Of a DNA stretch of 33,851 nt, positions 9,884-33,851 are shown piece after piece (within the stretch, counting starts at the first letter, position 1; every line of letters starts with the position of its first letter). The translations under genes were made by a program, and so were the position numbers. Location of the stretch: assembly GCA_012512595.1 (NCBI GenBank), contig JAAZDW010000008.1, positions 1 to 33,851 on the forward strand. Direction: 5' to 3'. The stretch comes from Erysipelothrix sp. (GTDB lineage Bacteria; Bacillota_I; Bacilli_A; Erysipelotrichales; Erysipelotrichaceae). The notes under the pieces are model-generated. The model was not told the origin of the DNA. It saw only the letters and a program-made list of their open reading frames with translations, and did no database searches.

Positions 9884-11065
9884 ATGGTTAATTTTACATA
9901 TTATACACCAACCAAAATAGTTTTTGGTGCTGACACTGAAAATCAGGTTTCAGAGCTTATTAAAGAATTCAAGGGTCAAAAGGTATTAATTCACTATGGA
10001 CAGCAATCAGTCGTTAAGTCTGGGCTTTTAAATAACGTTAAAGAAAACTTAAAGGAAAACAATATCGATTTTGAATTATTAGGTGGGGTTGTCGCTAATC
10101 CCCTTTTATCAAAAGTAAAAGAAGGCATCGCTTTAACCAAGGCGAAAAATATCGACTTTGTATTAGCCTTAGGTGGTGGCAGTGTCATTGACTCCGCTAA
10201 GGCAATTGCCGTGGGTGCAATAACCAATGATAAAGTCGAAGATTTAATTGGGAAAAAAGACATCAATCAATCTTTACCAGTCGGAGCCATTTTAACCATT
10301 GCCGCAGCCGGTAGTGAAATGAGTGCAACATCTGTAATCACAAATGACCAAACCCTTTTAAAACGATCCTTTAGTGGTGATGCAATGCGCCCAGTTTTCG
10401 CAATCTTAAACCCACAACTAACTTATACTCTTCCAAACTATCAAAGTGCCTGTGGTGCTGCCGATATAATCATGCACACAGTTGAAAGATATTTTACAAA
10501 TGCAGCTACTTTAGACTTAACTGATCAAATAGCTGCGGTTTTAGTTAAAAATGTCATAAAGCATACAAAAACCATTTTAAAACATCCAAATGACTACAAG
10601 GCTCGAGCTGAATTGATGTGGAGTGGTTCCCTCTCCCACAATGATTTAACAAGTGCTAGATCAAACCGTGGTGATTGGGCTGTTCACCAGTTAGGTCATG
10701 AACTAAGTGCCAAGTATAATCTCGCCCATGGCGCTTCACTTACGGCGATCTGGTCAACTTGGGCTACTTATGCTGCCCCTTGTAATCAAGAGAGATTTTT
10801 AAAGTTTGCTAAAGAAGTGATGGAAGTCGAAACAACCGATAAAAGTGATAAAGAAGTAATAAGTCAAGGCATTAGTAAACTTAATAACTTTTTTAAAGAA
10901 ATTGGCTTACCAACATCCTTAAAGGATTTAAAAGTTAACATTAGTGACCAAGATATTGATGATATGACCATAAAGGCTAGCCGTTATCATAGCTTTAAAC
11001 CAGGCAATATTTTATTGTTAGAAGAAAGTGACATTAAAAATATTTATATGCTTGCCAATACTTAG
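9884..11065 (+). CDS. Iron-containing alcohol dehydrogenase, copy 1
   Basis: 393-aa group III metal-dependent alcohol dehydrogenase (BDH/YqhD-like), cytosolic, reducing aldehydes with NAD(P)H. The nucleotide loop GGGSVIDSAKAIA is at 97-109. The metal ligands expected in the family fit Asp194, His198, His268 and His282 (in ADIIMHTVERYF, HQLGHE and AHG). It aligns without gaps to the copy at 14284, with 183 identities in the first 290 residues by hand count. It carries WSTW where the other copy has WPTW. AAGGAGAG precedes the ATG. Next to pflAB, so likely used to re-oxidise NAD(P)H during fermentation; the exact substrate is unknown. Confidence 0.93.
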   Translation: MVNFTYYTPTKIVFGADTENQVSELIKEFKGQKVLIHYGQQSVVKSGLLNNVKENLKENNIDFELLGGVVANPLLSKVKEGIALTKAKNIDFVLALGGGSVIDSAKAIAVGAITNDKVEDLIGKKDINQSLPVGAILTIAAAGSEMSATSVITNDQTLLKRSFSGDAMRPVFAILNPQLTYTLPNYQSACGAADIIMHTVERYFTNAATLDLTDQIAAVLVKNVIKHTKTILKHPNDYKARAELMWSGSLSHNDLTSARSNRGDWAVHQLGHELSAKYNLAHGASLTAIWSTWATYAAPCNQERFLKFAKEVMEVETTDKSDKEVISQGISKLNNFFKEIGLPTSLKDLKVNISDQDIDDMTIKASRYHSFKPGNILLLEESDIKNIYMLANT

Positions 11066-11163: not shown

Positions 11164-11898
11164 TTATTTATAGATGTCTAATTTACCCTGCAAATAAACA
11201 AATAATTCGTCTAATTTTTCTTTTTCCATACCTGGAACACCTTCTAGCGGATATTCAATACCAAGTTCTGTATATTTTGAATTTCCCATAGTGTGGTATG
11301 GAAGTAGTTGCACCTTTTCGACATTTTTGATTTTATTAATTTCAACTGCTAATTCATCCATTTTTTCAAATGTATCATTATGACCTGGAACAATAACTGT
11401 TCTAATCCATAATGGAACATTATTTTCTTGAGCCTTGGCGACAAACTGGTCGGAGATCCTTTTAGTGACCCCAGTTAATTTTGGATAATCAAAGGGATTT
11501 GGTTCTTTTAAATCAAAGATAACCAAGTCCACTAATTTTAAGATGCTATCAAAATGAGCAGCATTTCCAAAACCGGATGTATCAAGGACTGTATGAATTT
11601 CATTCTCGCGACACTTTTCTAGAAATGACTTTAGAAATAGTGGTTGTGATAATGGTTCGCCCCCACTAATTGTTACTCCGCCATCTGTACCATAAAATGT
11701 TTTATAGCGTGAAATTTTTTCATATAATTCATCAATGGTCGTTAAATCAGATGGTTGTGTTTTCCATAAGTCAGGATTGTGACAGTATGAACATCTAAGT
11801 GGGCAGCCTCCAAAAAAGACAACTGTTCTAACTCCAGGTCCATCAAGGGTACCCATTGATTCAATTTTTCTGACAAAACCTTTTTTAGACCACGTCAT
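11164..11898 (-). CDS. pflA: Pyruvate formate-lyase activating enzyme (radical SAM)
   Basis: 244-aa radical S-adenosylmethionine enzyme that installs the glycyl radical on PflB under anaerobic conditions. The 4Fe-4S cluster motif CxxxCxxC is at Cys32, Cys36, Cys39 ([14 protein letters not shown]). The GGE motif that contacts SAM is in [10 protein letters not shown]. The length matches the family. Its ATG overlaps the end of pflB by 14 nt, so translation is coupled and dosage tied to its substrate enzyme. AGGA lies upstream within pflB. Confidence 0.96.
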
Positions 11899-14113
11899 GG
11901 AAGGTCCTATTAATTACTTCTTCTTGTTGTTCTTTAGATAAGCGATTAAAGTGAACGGCATAGCCAGATACTCGAATGGTTAGATTTGGATAATTATCTG
12001 GATTTTCCATTGCATCAATTAACATTTCACGGTCTAAGACGTTTACATTTAAATGATGGGCATCTTGAACAAAGTAGCCATCTAAAATTGAAACAATATT
12101 TTCTATTCTTTGTTGTAAGTCTTCGCCTAAAACTGAAGGTACAATTGAAAACGTATTTGAAATACCATCTTCACAAGCACAGGCATAAGGTAATTTTGCC
12201 ACGGAATTTAGCGAAGCCAAGGCTCCACTTTTATCGCGACCATGCATTGGGTTTGCACCTGGGGCAAATGGTTCGCCAATTTTTCTTCCATCTGGTGTTG
12301 AACCAGTTGTTTTACCATAAACAACATTTGAGGTAATTGTTAATAAAGACATCGAATGTTTAGCATCACGAATTAATTGGTGACTCTTTAGATAACCAAA
12401 GAATGTTTCAACCATATCATTAGCTAAGTTATCTACCCGGTCATCATCATTTCCAAATTGTGGATATTCACCATCTAAGTCAAAGTCAACCGCAATTCCT
12501 GCTTCATTTCTAATAACTCTAACTTTACTATATTTAACTGCTGACAATGAATCCGCAACAACTGAAAGTCCAGCGATTCCAAAAGCCATAATTCTTTCGA
12601 TGTTTGTATCATGTAAGGCCATTTGAGCTTTTTCATAAGCGTACTTGTCATGCATAAAGTGTATAATATTCATCGCATCAACATAGACTGCGGCTAACTG
12701 GCTTAATACTTTATCATAATTAGCCATTAATTTATCAAAGTCTAAAATATCATCAGTAAGTGGTTCAATATCAAGTAAAACTTTTTTTCCTGTGATTTCA
12801 TCAATACCACCATTAATTGCATAAAGTAGCGCCTTGCCTAAGTTTGCTCTTGCACCGAAGTATTGCATTTGTTTTCCAAGGGCCATTGCCGATACACAAC
12901 AAGCGATCGCATAATCATCACCATAAATTGGACGCATCAAGTCATCGTTTTCATATTGTAGGGCACCAGTATGAACTGAGGTTTTAGCACAATACTTTTT
13001 CCAGTTTTCTGGAAGATCTTGAGCCCATAAAACCGTCATATTTGGTTCTGGTGCTGCACCTAAATTATCCAGTGTGTGCAAGTATCTATAACTGTTTTTA
13101 GTTACTAAGTGTTTTCCATCATCGGTCATTCCACCTAATCCTTCAGTTACCCAAGTTGGGTCGCCCGCAAATAGGTCATCATATTCCTTAGTTCTTAAGT
13201 GTCTAATTAAACGTAACTTCATCACAAATTGATCAACTAATGTTTGAGCCATGTCTTCATCAATTAAACCGGCTTGTAAGTCACGCTCAATATATATATC
13301 TAAGAAAGTCGAAGTTCTACCAATACTCATTGCGGCTCCATTATTTTCTTTAGTCGCAGCTAAATATGCATAGTATAACCATTGAATTGCTTCTCTGGCT
13401 GTAGTTGCCGGTAATGAAATATCATCACCATAAGTAAGCGCCATTGCCTTTATATCATGTAAGGCTTTAATTTGGTCACTAACTTCTTCTCTTAATTGAA
13501 TCGTTTTTGCATTAATTGTTGTAATCTCATTTAAATCTTTAGTTTTTTCTTCAACTAAATAATCAATCCCATAAAGTGCTACTCTACGGTAGTCACCAAT
13601 AATCCGACCACGCCCATAAGCATCAGGAAGCCCAGTAATTAAGCCAGCACTTCTTGCTCTTCTAACCGCAGGTGTATATGCATCAAAAACGCCTTGATTG
13701 TGTGATTTTGTATATTTAGCGAAAAATTCTGAAAGTCCATCTTTCCATTTATAACCATATTGGTCTAAAATGCTATCAACCATTCTAATCCCGCCATATG
13801 GATTAATAACTCTTTTTAAAGGAGCATCACTTTGAAGCCCTACAATTAATTCTTCTTCTTTGATAATATAACCAGGTTTAAAATTATTAACTCCTGAAAC
13901 ACTATCTGTGTCAATGTCTAAAACACCAAGTCTGAGTTCCTCTTTTAATAACTCTTCTGATTTAGACCATAATTTTTCTGTTGACTTGGATGGTCCAACT
14001 AAAAATGAATCATCGCCGTCATATCGAGTAATGTTTGCTTTAATAAAATCAGATACATTTATCTCATCTTGCCACTTATTCAAAACAAAACCCTTCCATG
14101 CTATATTTTGCAT
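11885..14113 (-). CDS. pflB: Formate C-acetyltransferase (pyruvate formate-lyase)
   Basis: Converts pyruvate and CoA to acetyl-CoA and formate by glycyl-radical chemistry; oxygen-sensitive. The start at 14113 (MQNIAWKGF) follows GGAGG at 8 nt and gives 742 aa, a normal length; longer starts lack a ribosome site. The paired catalytic cysteines are Cys405-Cys406 (IACCVSAM). The radical-bearing glycine is Gly717 in RVSGYAV, near the C-terminus. The presence of this enzyme points to anaerobic fermentation. It is divergent from dehydrogenase copy 2 across a 170-nt region with promoters in both directions. Confidence 0.98.
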
Positions 14114-14129
14114 ATTATCATCCTCCGCT

Positions 14130-14157
14130 TTAATATAATAGCATATATAACTGTAAA
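14130..14157 (-). promoter_or_regulatory. Probable pflB promoter
   Basis: Minus strand -35 TTTACA (14157-14152), 16-nt spacer, -10 TATTAA (14135-14130). Moderate match. Confidence 0.5.
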
Positions 14158-14188
14158 GACTAGTTAATATCATCATATTATAAAGGCT

Positions 14189-14283: not shown

Positions 14284-15465
14284 ATGGTTAAATTTAATTA
14301 CTATACACCCACAGAGATAGTTTTTGGAGAAAATAGTGAATACGAAGTCGCAAACTTAATCAAAGTTTATAAGGGAAAAAAAGTATTAGTTCATTATGGA
14401 GGAAAATCAGCCCTTGAATCCGGATTACTAGATCGTATTTATGAAGCCTTAACTGCAAATGAAATTACTTATGTAAGTTTAGGTGGGGTTGTGGCAAATC
14501 CTGTGTTATCTAAGATTGAAGAAGGAATCACTTTAGCAAAAACAGAAAAAGTCGACTTTGTTTTAGCAGTAGGAGGCGGAAGTGTTATTGACTCTTCCAA
14601 AGCAATCGCTGTAGGGGCATTGTCAAAAGAGCCTATTTGGAGTTTTGTTGGAAATATTGACATCAAAAAAGCGCTACCGGTTGGAGTTGTTTTAACAATT
14701 GCCGCAGCTGGTAGTGAAATGAGTAGTGGTGCAGTTATTACAAATGACACCAACGACTTAAAAAGAGACTTTGGCGGAAGAGCCTTACGTCCGGTCTTTG
14801 CGATTTTAAATCCCGAATTGACTTATACCCTTCCAACTTATCAAACAGCTTGTGGTGTGGCCGATATTATTATGCACACAGTTGAAAGATACTTTACTAA
14901 TAAAACAAGTATGGAAATAACTGATCAAATTTCAAATGTTTTAATTCAAACTGTAATGCGTCATGCGCTAGTCTTGTTAGATGAGCCTACAAATTATGAA
15001 TCTCGTGCTGAAATAATGTGGAGTGGTTCACTATCTCACAATGGCCTTACAGGCGCAAGAGCTAGTGGTGGAGACTGGGCTTGTCACCAAATGGGACATG
15101 AACTAAGTGCTAAGTATGGTGTTGCTCACGGAGCCTCACTAACTGCTCTTTGGCCTACTTGGGCTAGATATGTTTCAGGGGAAAATAAAGAACGTTTTAA
15201 AAAATTTGCAATTGAAGTTATGGAAGTAGACCCAAGTGATAAAACTTCAAGTGAAATTATTGACCAAGGCATTTTAAAACTAGAAGACTTCTTTAAAAAA
15301 CTTGATCTACCTACAACACTAAAAGCTTTAGACAAGGACATAAATGAAGAAGATATTAAAGACATGGCTTTAAAAGCCACTCACAATAATACGTTTAATC
15401 CAGGAGAAATAAAAAAACTCCACTATGAAGATATTATTAATATCATGAGTAAAGCTAATCAATAA
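14284..15465 (+). CDS. Iron-containing alcohol dehydrogenase, copy 2
   Basis: 393-aa group III iron alcohol dehydrogenase, exactly the length of the copy at 9884. It has GGGSVIDSSKAIA at 97-109 and the expected metal ligands Asp194, His198, His268, His282. It keeps the WPTW segment more typical of butanol-dehydrogenase-like relatives, so this copy may be the more conventional enzyme. Strong ribosome site AAGGAGGAG and its own promoter, facing away from pflB. Likely an NAD(P)H-consuming aldehyde reductase in fermentation; cofactor and substrate cannot be read from the sequence. Confidence 0.94.
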   Translation: MVKFNYYTPTEIVFGENSEYEVANLIKVYKGKKVLVHYGGKSALESGLLDRIYEALTANEITYVSLGGVVANPVLSKIEEGITLAKTEKVDFVLAVGGGSVIDSSKAIAVGALSKEPIWSFVGNIDIKKALPVGVVLTIAAAGSEMSSGAVITNDTNDLKRDFGGRALRPVFAILNPELTYTLPTYQTACGVADIIMHTVERYFTNKTSMEITDQISNVLIQTVMRHALVLLDEPTNYESRAEIMWSGSLSHNGLTGARASGGDWACHQMGHELSAKYGVAHGASLTALWPTWARYVSGENKERFKKFAIEVMEVDPSDKTSSEIIDQGILKLEDFFKKLDLPTTLKALDKDINEEDIKDMALKATHNNTFNPGEIKKLHYEDIINIMSKANQ

Positions 15466-30676: not shown

Positions 30677-31597
30677 TTATACTACCTTGTTTCTAACTTC
30701 TTCATCTTTTTCAAATCGATAAATATTATCCAAAACAAGATCTTTTAATCTTTTACTAAGCAAATTTGAACTTGAAGAAATATGAGGCGTTAAACTAACC
30801 TTAGGATGCTTCCACAATAATGAATCTGATGAAAGTGGTTCGTTTGGAACCACATCTAAGTAAACATGGCTAAGCTTTGTTTCTAAGACTTTTAAAAGAT
30901 CCTCAACTACTAGTTGTGAGCCCCGTCCAATATTAATAAATATAGCTTCAGTTTTCATTTGACTAAAGAAAGCTTTATTATATAAACCTTTTGTTGCAGT
31001 AGTTAAAGGTAGGGCTCCAACCACAATATCAGCTTCACTTAAAACTTCATGCATATTATCTATAGCATAGGTTTGGTCAAAATGTAAAACATGGCCACCA
31101 CTACGATTTATGCCAATCACTTCAACTTCAAAAGCCTTTAATCTTTTGGCGATTTCGCTACCGATGTCGCCAGTCCCTAAAATTAAAGCTTTTTGATTAG
31201 AGACTTCTTTAATATTTTTTTGACTTATTGAACGTTTTTCCCAAAAAGATTTACTTTGATTATCCCTAAAGCGCTGAGCATCTTTGTAATAGTCTAAAAT
31301 TTTCAAAAGCACATATTCAGCAATTGAAATACCCGAAACACCAGTAGCATTAGCAAAAATGATCCCCATTGACTTTATTTTTTCTAAGTCAACATGATCA
31401 TAACCTGCCATTAGTGATTGAATAAATTTAAGTCCTTTAATATCTTCTAACTCTTTAAAAGGTGTACCTGGAAAGCCAACAAAAATATCGCCTGCTACCT
31501 TTTCATTATTATAGTATTCAATTGAAAACCCTAAATCTTTTAAATTATCTAAATCACTTTTATTAAGTTCTGCATTTTTTTGTAAAATTATTTTCAT
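30677..31597 (-). CDS. D-isomer-specific 2-hydroxyacid dehydrogenase
   Basis: 306-aa NAD(P)-dependent oxidoreductase that interconverts 2-hydroxy- and 2-oxo-acids. The Rossmann motif GTGDIGSEIAKRL is followed by GINRSGG; an Arg after the second strand hints at NADPH use. The catalytic triad fits Arg in NIGRGSQL, Glu in VVPNEPL and His in TPHISS. The N-terminal substrate domain includes FVGFPGTPFKELEDI. It has AGAGG before the ATG, is preceded by the trxB terminator, and runs into yvcK with a 1-nt gap, so it starts the yvcK-whiA operon. Substrate unknown. Confidence 0.88.
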   Translation of the reverse strand: MKIILQKNAELNKSDLDNLKDLGFSIEYYNNEKVAGDIFVGFPGTPFKELEDIKGLKFIQSLMAGYDHVDLEKIKSMGIIFANATGVSGISIAEYVLLKILDYYKDAQRFRDNQSKSFWEKRSISQKNIKEVSNQKALILGTGDIGSEIAKRLKAFEVEVIGINRSGGHVLHFDQTYAIDNMHEVLSEADIVVGALPLTTATKGLYNKAFFSQMKTEAIFINIGRGSQLVVEDLLKVLETKLSHVYLDVVPNEPLSSDSLLWKHPKVSLTPHISSSSNLLSKRLKDLVLDNIYRFEKDEEVRNKVV

Positions 31598-31687: not shown

Positions 31688-32614
31688 TTAATTTGGATAT
31701 TTTTCACTGATGTATTCAAAAGCTGCCTGAGCTGCGATTGCGCCATCACTTGTCGCCGTAACTACTTGACGTAATTTTTTTACATTAATATCGCCAGCAC
31801 TATAAATGCCTTCTTTACTTGTCTGCATTTGACTATTAACTAAAACATACTTTTGAGCATCTAAGTCAACAACGCCCTCTAACATGTCTGTAATTGGGTC
31901 AGCACCAATATATGGAAAGACGGACTTAATTGCAATATCTCTTTTTTCTTCTGTTTGATTATTGACAATTTTCAAACCAGTTACTTGACTTCCATCAACT
32001 AATACTTCGACTGCCTCATGATGATATAAAATCTCAACATTACTTAAAGCTTCAACTTGTTTTAAAATTCTATCTTCAGCCTTAACTTTATCGCCTCTAA
32101 CTAAAATAGTTACTGATTTTACAAGTCCAGCTAAGTAAATTGACTCTTCTAAAGCTGAATTCCCGCCACCGATAACAGCAACATCTTCTCCTTTATAAAA
32201 ACCACCATCACATATGGCACAATAGGAAACACCACGACTTGCATATTCTTTTTCATTAGGAATACCAATTAATCTTTCCTTTGTCCCTGTGGCAACAATA
32301 ACTGCCCTGCCTAAATAAGAATCTTGGTCACTTACAACTTCATGTCCATATTCATGGTCTTTAATTTGACTAACTCTTCCATAAATATATTCAGCACCTA
32401 AATTTGTTGCATGTTCAAACATATCTAAGGCCAAATTGGCTCCATGAGTTGCCTTAATTCCTGGCCAGTTAGTTATTTCATTTGTAACCGTCAACTTACC
32501 ACCTGGTGCGTCCGCTTCTATAAAAGCTGTGCTTAATCCACTTCGAACTGCATAAATGGCTGCCGTAAGCCCAGCTGGGCCACCGCCAACAATAATTAAA
32601 TCATAATTTTTCAC
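31688..32614 (-). CDS. trxB: Thioredoxin-disulfide reductase
   Basis: 308-aa FAD-dependent enzyme that reduces thioredoxin with NADPH in the cytoplasm. FAD motif DLIIVGGGPAGLTAAIYA at the N-terminus, redox pair CAIC (YCAICDGGF), NADPH motif VIGGGNSALEE and the terminal SAGDI signature are present. The start is GTG, overlapping the stop of the upstream fusion gene (TAGTG) with AAGGAGG 7 nt upstream. The linkage lgt-ppaX-trxB also occurs in Bacillus. Confidence 0.96.
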   Translation of the reverse strand: MKNYDLIIVGGGPAGLTAAIYAVRSGLSTAFIEADAPGGKLTVTNEITNWPGIKATHGANLALDMFEHATNLGAEYIYGRVSQIKDHEYGHEVVSDQDSYLGRAVIVATGTKERLIGIPNEKEYASRGVSYCAICDGGFYKGEDVAVIGGGNSALEESIYLAGLVKSVTILVRGDKVKAEDRILKQVEALSNVEILYHHEAVEVLVDGSQVTGLKIVNNQTEEKRDIAIKSVFPYIGADPITDMLEGVVDLDAQKYVLVNSQMQTSKEGIYSAGDINVKKLRQVVTATSDGAIAAQAAFEYISEKYPN

Positions 32615-33851
32615 TAAATAACCTCCTTGATAATTTCAATAATTTCACTTAAATCTTCTACTAAATAATCTGGTTTAACATCAATTAAATCTTGTCTGAT
32701 TTCCTCTACTCCAAGTAGGGCAATTGAAATACAGCCACTTGCTTTTGCAGCTAAGATATCGGTAACTGTATCGCCAACATAATAGCACTTTTTAGCCTTT
32801 GGTAAAACTGCGTCTTTAGCTTTTAAAATACCTAAGGGACTAGGTTTGGCTTTTTCTACTTCATCGCCACCAACTACAACATCCATGTATTTATCAAAAT
32901 CTAAAACTTTTAATCCCAGATTTAAGGAGTCTTTCCACTTACTGGAAACAACACCCATCTTTACTTTATTTGATTTTAAATACTCTAGCAATTTTGTTGC
33001 ATTTTCTATTTCCGTCAAAGAAGTTTTTTGTAAAAGAAAGTTTATTTCACGGTATTCATTTATATACTGGTCAACATCGTCTAACTTTAAATATTTTTTA
33101 AATGTGTAGTCTAAGGTTGGTCCAACATAACTTACTTCCATTTCGCGCGTGATTTCTATTTCTGGAAAATGCTTTTCAAAGACTTGATTAAAGGAGTCAA
33201 TGATAAGGGCGTTACTGTCAGCTATAGTTCCGTCAAAGTCAAATAAGACTAAAACATCTTCGGCTTTATTCTTTTTAAAGACTCCCAGCAAACCTAAGGC
33301 TCCAATTATAATAAAAATCACTGATACAATTTGGGCTGACTTTAAACTAAATAACATTAAACTATCAGATCTAAAGTGTTCAACAACAAAGCGGACAATC
33401 CCATACCAAAGTAGATATGAAAAGGCATAGTCGCCTTTTTTAATTTTCTTAACTCTTTTTAATAGAAAGTAAATTAAAAGAAATCCGACAATATTTAAAC
33501 TACTTTCTAAAAGAAACATTGGTTGCCGATAAGCCCCATCAATAAACATATGATTTTTTAGCCATAATGGCCAACCATTAAAGAAACTTTCACTGACCTT
33601 TTGGCCAAAGGCTTCTTGATTTAAGAAGTTACCCCAACGACCGATTGCTTGAGCTATTAGTAAGTTTGGCATTGTGCTATCTGCTAAATCAACAAAATCA
33701 ATATTTTGTCTTTTACTCGCAAAATATGCATAAGCTGCACCACCAAACAAACCACCTTGGATCGCTAAGCCACCATCTCTAAAAGCAAATACTTTCATTG
33801 GATTATTAATAAAATATGCCTTATCAGGATAAAATAGTACATACCAAAGTC
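32614..33851 (-). CDS. Lgt-PpaX fusion: prolipoprotein diacylglyceryl transferase plus HAD phosphatase (5' end outside window)
   Basis: One open frame of at least 411 codons, still open at the right edge; ATG 33798 is internal. The first visible ~190 residues are the C-terminal two-thirds of Lgt, the membrane enzyme that lipidates prolipoproteins. GGLAIQGG, IGRWGNFLNQEAFG (conserved Arg, Asn, Glu) and YGIVRFVVEHFR match its core. A last helix (VIFIIIGALGLLGVF) and a short charged linker lead into a HAD-superfamily phosphatase like PpaX/Gph: FDFDGTIADS (catalytic Asp pair), VVSSKWKDS, KAKPSPLGIL, YVGDTVTD. In Bacillus lgt and ppaX are adjacent separate genes. The motif normally reading HGG has Gln for His here. 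Confidence 0.9.
   Translation of the reverse strand, partial: LWYVLFYPDKAYFINNPMKVFAFRDGGLAIQGGLFGGAAYAYFASKRQNIDFVDLADSTMPNLLIAQAIGRWGNFLNQEAFGQKVSESFFNGWPLWLKNHMFIDGAYRQPMFLLESSLNIVGFLLIYFLLKRVKKIKKGDYAFSYLLWYGIVRFVVEHFRSDSLMLFSLKSAQIVSVIFIIIGALGLLGVFKKNKAEDVLVLFDFDGTIADSNALIIDSFNQVFEKHFPEIEITREMEVSYVGPTLDYTFKKYLKLDDVDQYINEYREINFLLQKTSLTEIENATKLLEYLKSNKVKMGVVSSKWKDSLNLGLKVLDFDKYMDVVVGGDEVEKAKPSPLGILKAKDAVLPKAKKCYYVGDTVTDILAAKASGCISIALLGVEEIRQDLIDVKPDYLVEDLSEIIEIIKEVI

Follow-up and report, generated by a model that had tools for sequence, protein, structure and literature searches.

In a genome of Erysipelothrix sp., Lgt (prolipoprotein diacylglyceryl transferase), the membrane enzyme by which bacterial lipoproteins are lipidated, and a phosphatase of the HAD type stand in one continuous reading frame, which raises the questions of whether this joint is genuine and what a phosphatase attached to Lgt would do. 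The window analysed here, 33,851 nucleotides long, is a complete contig (G000:C22) of a draft genome of 0.95 Mb and 66% completeness. The contig terminates inside lgt, which removes any upstream gene and, judged against the nearest relatives, some 67 residues of the N-terminus with TM1 and a portion of TM2. The following features were assigned:

32614..33849, minus strand: fused lgt-HAD open reading frame, 411 codons plus TAG stop (32616-32614), 5' end cut by the contig end
33280..33849, minus strand: Lgt domain, aa 1-190, end of TM2 to TM7 (PF01790, E 1e-47; TIGR00544; PDB 5azb, E 1e-9)
33613..33642, minus strand: Lgt motif GRWGNFLNQE (equivalents of R143, N146 and E151)
33364..33393, minus strand: Lgt motif RFVVEHFRSD (equivalents of R239, E243 and R246)
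33253..33279, minus strand: linker of about 9 aa between TM7 and HAD
32617..33252, minus strand: HAD domain, aa 200-411, PpaX-like, subfamily IA with C1 cap (HAD_2, E 6e-43)
33226..33240, minus strand: HAD motif I, DFDGT
32836..32853, minus strand: HAD motif III lysine (KAKPSP)
32758..32775, minus strand: HAD motif IV, GDTVTD
31688..32614, minus strand: downstream gene trxB, thioredoxin reductase-like, with a GTG start that shares 1 nt with the stop of the fusion and a ribosome-binding site within the fusion

A preliminary description of the locus had placed the two domains at the contig end in one uninterrupted frame with a complete HAD domain carrying all four motifs. This was borne out: the frame is open from 33849 to the TAG stop, and HAD motifs I-IV are present. 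The coordinates given there (32614-33851) were correct; the gene lies on the minus strand, and its start codon is outside the window. Pfam assigned aa 1-186 of the fused ORF to LGT (E 1e-47) and aa 201-377 to HAD_2 (E 6e-43). The junction contains neither an N or other ambiguous base nor a homopolymer run, and the remaining two minus-strand frames hold 43 and 46 stops. An ORF of 394 aa starting from an internal ATG was discarded as an artefact of the N-terminal truncation at the contig end.

Chance and misassembly were ruled out as causes of the joint, because both other genomes of the genus encode the same fusion in single ORFs (482 and 484 aa, 53-54% identity). A single match spanning both domains was also obtained in most genomes of family f1, which by its named members corresponds to Erysipelotrichaceae (Erysipelothrix aquatica, L049; Amedibacillus dolichus DSM 3991, L051), and ORFs were read from the DNA in 29 of them. 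About 110 of approximately 171 f1 relatives of at least 90% completeness gave a match covering both domains, most of these being counted from the match itself. In total, 71 distinct fused ORFs were read across one class, distributed over f1 (43), f21 (14; Anaeroplasmataceae by named members, with L056 identical to L162), f11 (7), f6 (5) and f8 (2). The architecture for which a search among relatives had been proposed thus recurs in five families, and relatives are not always organized as separate genes. In the scan of genome contigs an alignment used as query gave matches and a single sequence gave none. Among 245 genomes drawn from across the phylum, no extra double-domain match was obtained beyond the class at E 1e-90, and no description of an Lgt-HAD fusion was found in the open-access literature. 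Four family members of 98-99% completeness, G018 and three genomes of genus g58 (G279, G499, G500), were without a match to the profile of the fused Lgt-HAD, or without one at E 1e-40; for G018 and G279 the search for hprK was also without match. In the two fused proteins of f8 (L191, L193), which are 665-667 aa long, Lgt is preceded by some 170 additional N-terminal residues that include several hydrophobic segments.

The Lgt half scores above the family cut-offs despite its truncation in the window, with 156.1 bits against 118.9 for TIGR00544 and 163 bits against 24.9 for PF01790. The residues R143, N146, E151, R239, E243 and R246 are kept in all 71 fused sequences, and R143, N146, E151, R239 and E243 are likewise found in the window. 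At the position of E. coli His103 (HGGL motif) the window has Gln, and the fused set comprises 37 H, 30 Q, 2 Y and 2 V. Since His103 is essential in E. coli but not conserved among aligned Lgts, Gln at this position does not exclude membership in the family; His103 is species-specific and does not define the family. The protein therefore resembles E. coli Lgt (5azb) in its tested catalytic residues save His103, in the 7-TM fold and in its family scores, and differs from it by Gln in place of His103 and by the added C-terminal cytoplasmic HAD. Judged by its residues the Lgt core looks catalytically complete, and diacylglyceryl transfer is predicted.

The HAD half is equally well preserved, with the catalytic residues D, D, K and D intact in 71 of 71 fused sequences. 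Its proposed kinship to PpaX holds in so far as PpaX (NF009804) was the top NCBIfam model for all fused HADs tested, the window's HAD having motifs I-IV and the C1 cap; its score of 145.7 bits, however, lies under the cut-off of 218, as do those of the other fused HADs (150-212), compared with 361 for PpaX of B. safensis. Motifs, best-scoring family and operon neighbourhood are thus shared with the PpaX/YvoE pyrophosphatase of the hprK operon, from which the fused HADs differ by scores below the cut-off and by being membrane-tethered rather than free.

On which side of the membrane the phosphatase would act can be predicted from the fold. Lgt has seven TM helices, and its N-terminus adds a strand to the periplasmic head (PMC4728403). 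With seven helices and the N-terminus outside, the C-terminus and hence the HAD should be cytoplasmic, which supports the earlier proposal of a phosphatase tethered to the inner face of the membrane. An AlphaFold prediction for the E. aquatica protein at full length (pLDDT 93.7, pTM 0.85) places a complete, helically capped HAD after seven long helices, and it matches E. coli Lgt 5azb as well as HAD phosphatases in the PDB. This topology bears directly on the suggestion that the HAD clears sn-glycerol-1-phosphate, the by-product of Lgt. Such a role is made attractive by the presence of both domains on the same polypeptide, and fused families that lack HprK (f6, f8) indicate that the link is not solely to HprK. 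However, Lgt uses phosphatidylglycerol, its active site faces outward and glycerol-1-phosphate exits on the periplasmic side (PMC4728403, PMC8689077). With the product released outside and the HAD held inside, direct clearance is unlikely: a HAD acting in the cytoplasm beside the membrane would have no direct access to the by-product. Moreover, the nearest kin of the HAD is PpaX and not a glycerol-phosphate phosphatase, and the HAD persists where Lgt is dead or not attached at all. The suggestion was consequently not supported, and we regard it as very improbable.

The fusion can be traced to genes that are neighbours elsewhere. In the sister family f2, lgt and ppaX are separate genes and are adjacent in genus g45; apparent g45 fusions of 503-511 aa were rejected, as their frame had been read through stops and the DNA holds two separate genes. 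The two genes occupy the same frame and are parted by a single stop in Gracilibacillus, G081 and G112, and such in-frame, one-stop pairs are represented by L055, L161 and L172. They overlap by 4 nt in Vagococcus humatus (L091 being a 4-nt overlap) and abut in Exiguobacterium (L122 being an abutting pair), and in most Bacillaceae sampled they are separated by 0.8-1.1 kb. The separate pairs of g45, V. humatus, Exiguobacterium and Gracilibacillus therefore have the same gene order, sometimes even the same frame with one stop, and differ in yielding two proteins instead of one. As adjacency of lgt and ppaX is common, the step to a fusion is small; it would suffice that, on two or more occasions in the class, the stop between the two genes was lost within an operon hprK-lgt-ppaX-trxB. 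In the Lgt tree the Erysipelotrichaceae-like fusions stand apart from those of f21, f11 and f6, and a single fused clade was rejected by the AU test on a 43-row subset of the Lgt sequences (p = 0.00034); the HAD tree was more poorly resolved. Because one fused clade is rejected by the Lgt tree, at least two independent fusions within the class appear to be the simplest reading. One ancient fusion followed by several fissions is less simple, though formally still admissible.

Given this easy route, the fusion may be passive, with a stop lost, both enzymes still working and neither tether nor link functional. In many Bacilli the two genes adjoin or overlap, which makes the fusion mutationally easy; fission or a free HAD is tolerated (G006 and several g32 genomes), and in L036 a HAD remnant persists where it overlaps the ribosome-binding site of trxB. 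At least two origins and retention over dozens of genera speak against passivity, as does a dead Lgt membrane part that appears to be under purifying selection in frame with HAD. A passive fusion is accordingly possible but doubtful.

The lineages in which one half is dead are instructive here. In L037 and in L039, L200 and L201 of genus g32 the first part of Lgt is retained; Pfam LGT still scores above its cut-off in L037 and L039, in both of which the catalytic residues of Lgt are gone and the HAD is complete. In L032, the closest relative of L037 by its HAD, the membrane helices are beyond recognition as Lgt. The genomes of L037, L039 and L032 have a separate Lgt paralogue of the CCYG type. 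Second Lgt paralogues (L033, L035, L038, L040, L045, L046) carry Cys at the positions of E. coli Asn146 and Glu151, and in the genomes of L037, L039 and L032 such paralogues are the only other Lgt found. About 45 g32 genomes carry either a dead Lgt fused to HAD or HAD alone, for the most part as recorded from matches. Across dozens of species genomes, genus g32 (e.g. L039, L200, L201) presents a decay series from dead Lgt fused to HAD to HAD alone. Between L039 and L200, dN was 0.16 and dS 1.32 in the membrane part (dN/dS about 0.12, against 0.03 for HAD), values that come from one species pair with dS above 1. By this measure the dead membrane part in g32 appears to remain under purifying selection while fused to an intact HAD. 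The converse loss is seen in L036, L196 and L197, where Lgt is kept and motifs I-III of the HAD have disappeared; a search of their genomes gave no close HAD as a replacement. In G006, HAD stands alone directly after hprK with no Lgt attached.

Since the dead Lgt remnant in one genus still seems to serve as an anchor, it appears that selection maintains the membrane tether for its own sake. A broader form of this reading is that Lgt was repeatedly recruited to anchor a PpaX-like phosphatase in the membrane, tethering at the cytoplasmic face being what is selected, and that one large genus retains its Lgt half, by now a catalytically dead pseudo-enzyme, only as anchor, lipidation having passed to the second, CCYG-type paralogue. 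We put this forward tentatively, as somewhat short of an even case.

The gene neighbourhood points to a possible substrate. The commonest operon is hprK-[lgt::HAD]-trxB, with hprK immediately preceding the fusion in almost all genomes of f1 (Erysipelotrichaceae-like), f21 (Anaeroplasmataceae-like) and f11, both same-genus genomes included; in the window the contig ends in lgt, and no hprK was found in its 66% complete genome. Directly 3' of the fusion most genomes have trxB, whiA or a RapZ-like gene, the latter two being named by inspection of the sequence. A C-terminal tail conserved in many f1 fusions, W[ST]xN[TM][IM](W), was considered as a functional motif and rejected, as its conservation results from the Shine-Dalgarno sequence and start codon of trxB, which overlap it in another frame.

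Further along the window, a D-2-hydroxyacid dehydrogenase gene (30677-31597, minus; PF02826, E 4.7e-45) is located between trxB and a yvcK (CofD)-whiA pair; many Bacilli have rapZ at this site beside yvcK-whiA. Two paralogous ORFs resembling iron-containing alcohol dehydrogenases (9884-11065 and 14284-15465, both plus) flank ORFs resembling pyruvate formate-lyase and its activase (11164-14176, minus).

For YvoE (PpaX) of B. subtilis, a pyrophosphatase encoded in the hprK operon, it was proposed that the enzyme favours dephosphorylation of P-Ser-HPr by removal of PPi (PMC2937029). With PpaX as the best model for the fused HADs, this role favours a tethered PpaX-like phosphatase acting on PPi. 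The likeliest substrate of the HAD would then be pyrophosphate, including that from HPr kinase/phosphorylase, and its removal would pull the dephosphorylation of P-Ser-HPr forward. The substrate is the weakest step of this reading. HprK was absent from all fused genomes of f6 and f8 in which it was searched, and HprK-derived PPi is therefore not a general reason for the fusion; two lineages that have kept hprK and Lgt yet lost the HAD also count against the PPi reading, as do the scores of the fused HADs below the PpaX cut-off. Most f1 genomes checked, the window's own included, contain a family II pyrophosphatase and the other fused families one of family I, so bulk removal of PPi has no need of the fused HAD.

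A substrate on the lipid side was weighed as well, the HAD being a lipid phosphatase that converts PG-phosphate of the inner leaflet to phosphatidylglycerol and so feeds the donor lipid of Lgt. The usual Gram-positive candidate for this step is YqeG. The HAD is on the appropriate membrane face, and in some fused genomes, among them G003, G378 and G401, no YqeG-type HAD of full score was found; YqeG is, however, above its cut-off in the window's own and most other fused genomes checked, which disfavours this role. In addition, the HAD persists with a dead Lgt and has a C1 cap, which in HADs is typical of small soluble substrates. This role, too, is hardly to be expected. The explanation to which we return, a bifunctional membrane protein in which a working Lgt is joined to a working PpaX-like, C1-capped HAD as a tethered phosphatase that probably acts on PPi, is one that we would accept or reject with about equal readiness. 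Observed directly are the fusion, its intact motifs, its distribution, the operon and the cases in which one half is dead; the topology of this protein, its catalysis, its substrate and the benefit of tethering are inferred.

Overall, the fusion is real, recurrent and constrained, and it is built from two known families, with a lineage in which the Lgt part appears to be a dead anchor. It physically joins lipoprotein biogenesis to a phosphatase whose relatives work in carbon catabolite control. Anchoring and catalysis are naturally set apart in the series of lineages where one half is dead, and the fusion could become testable in named cultured relatives, namely Erysipelothrix aquatica, Amedibacillus dolichus and, probably, Acholeplasma laidlawii. 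Targeting or annotation of Lgt in these bacteria concerns a two-domain protein.
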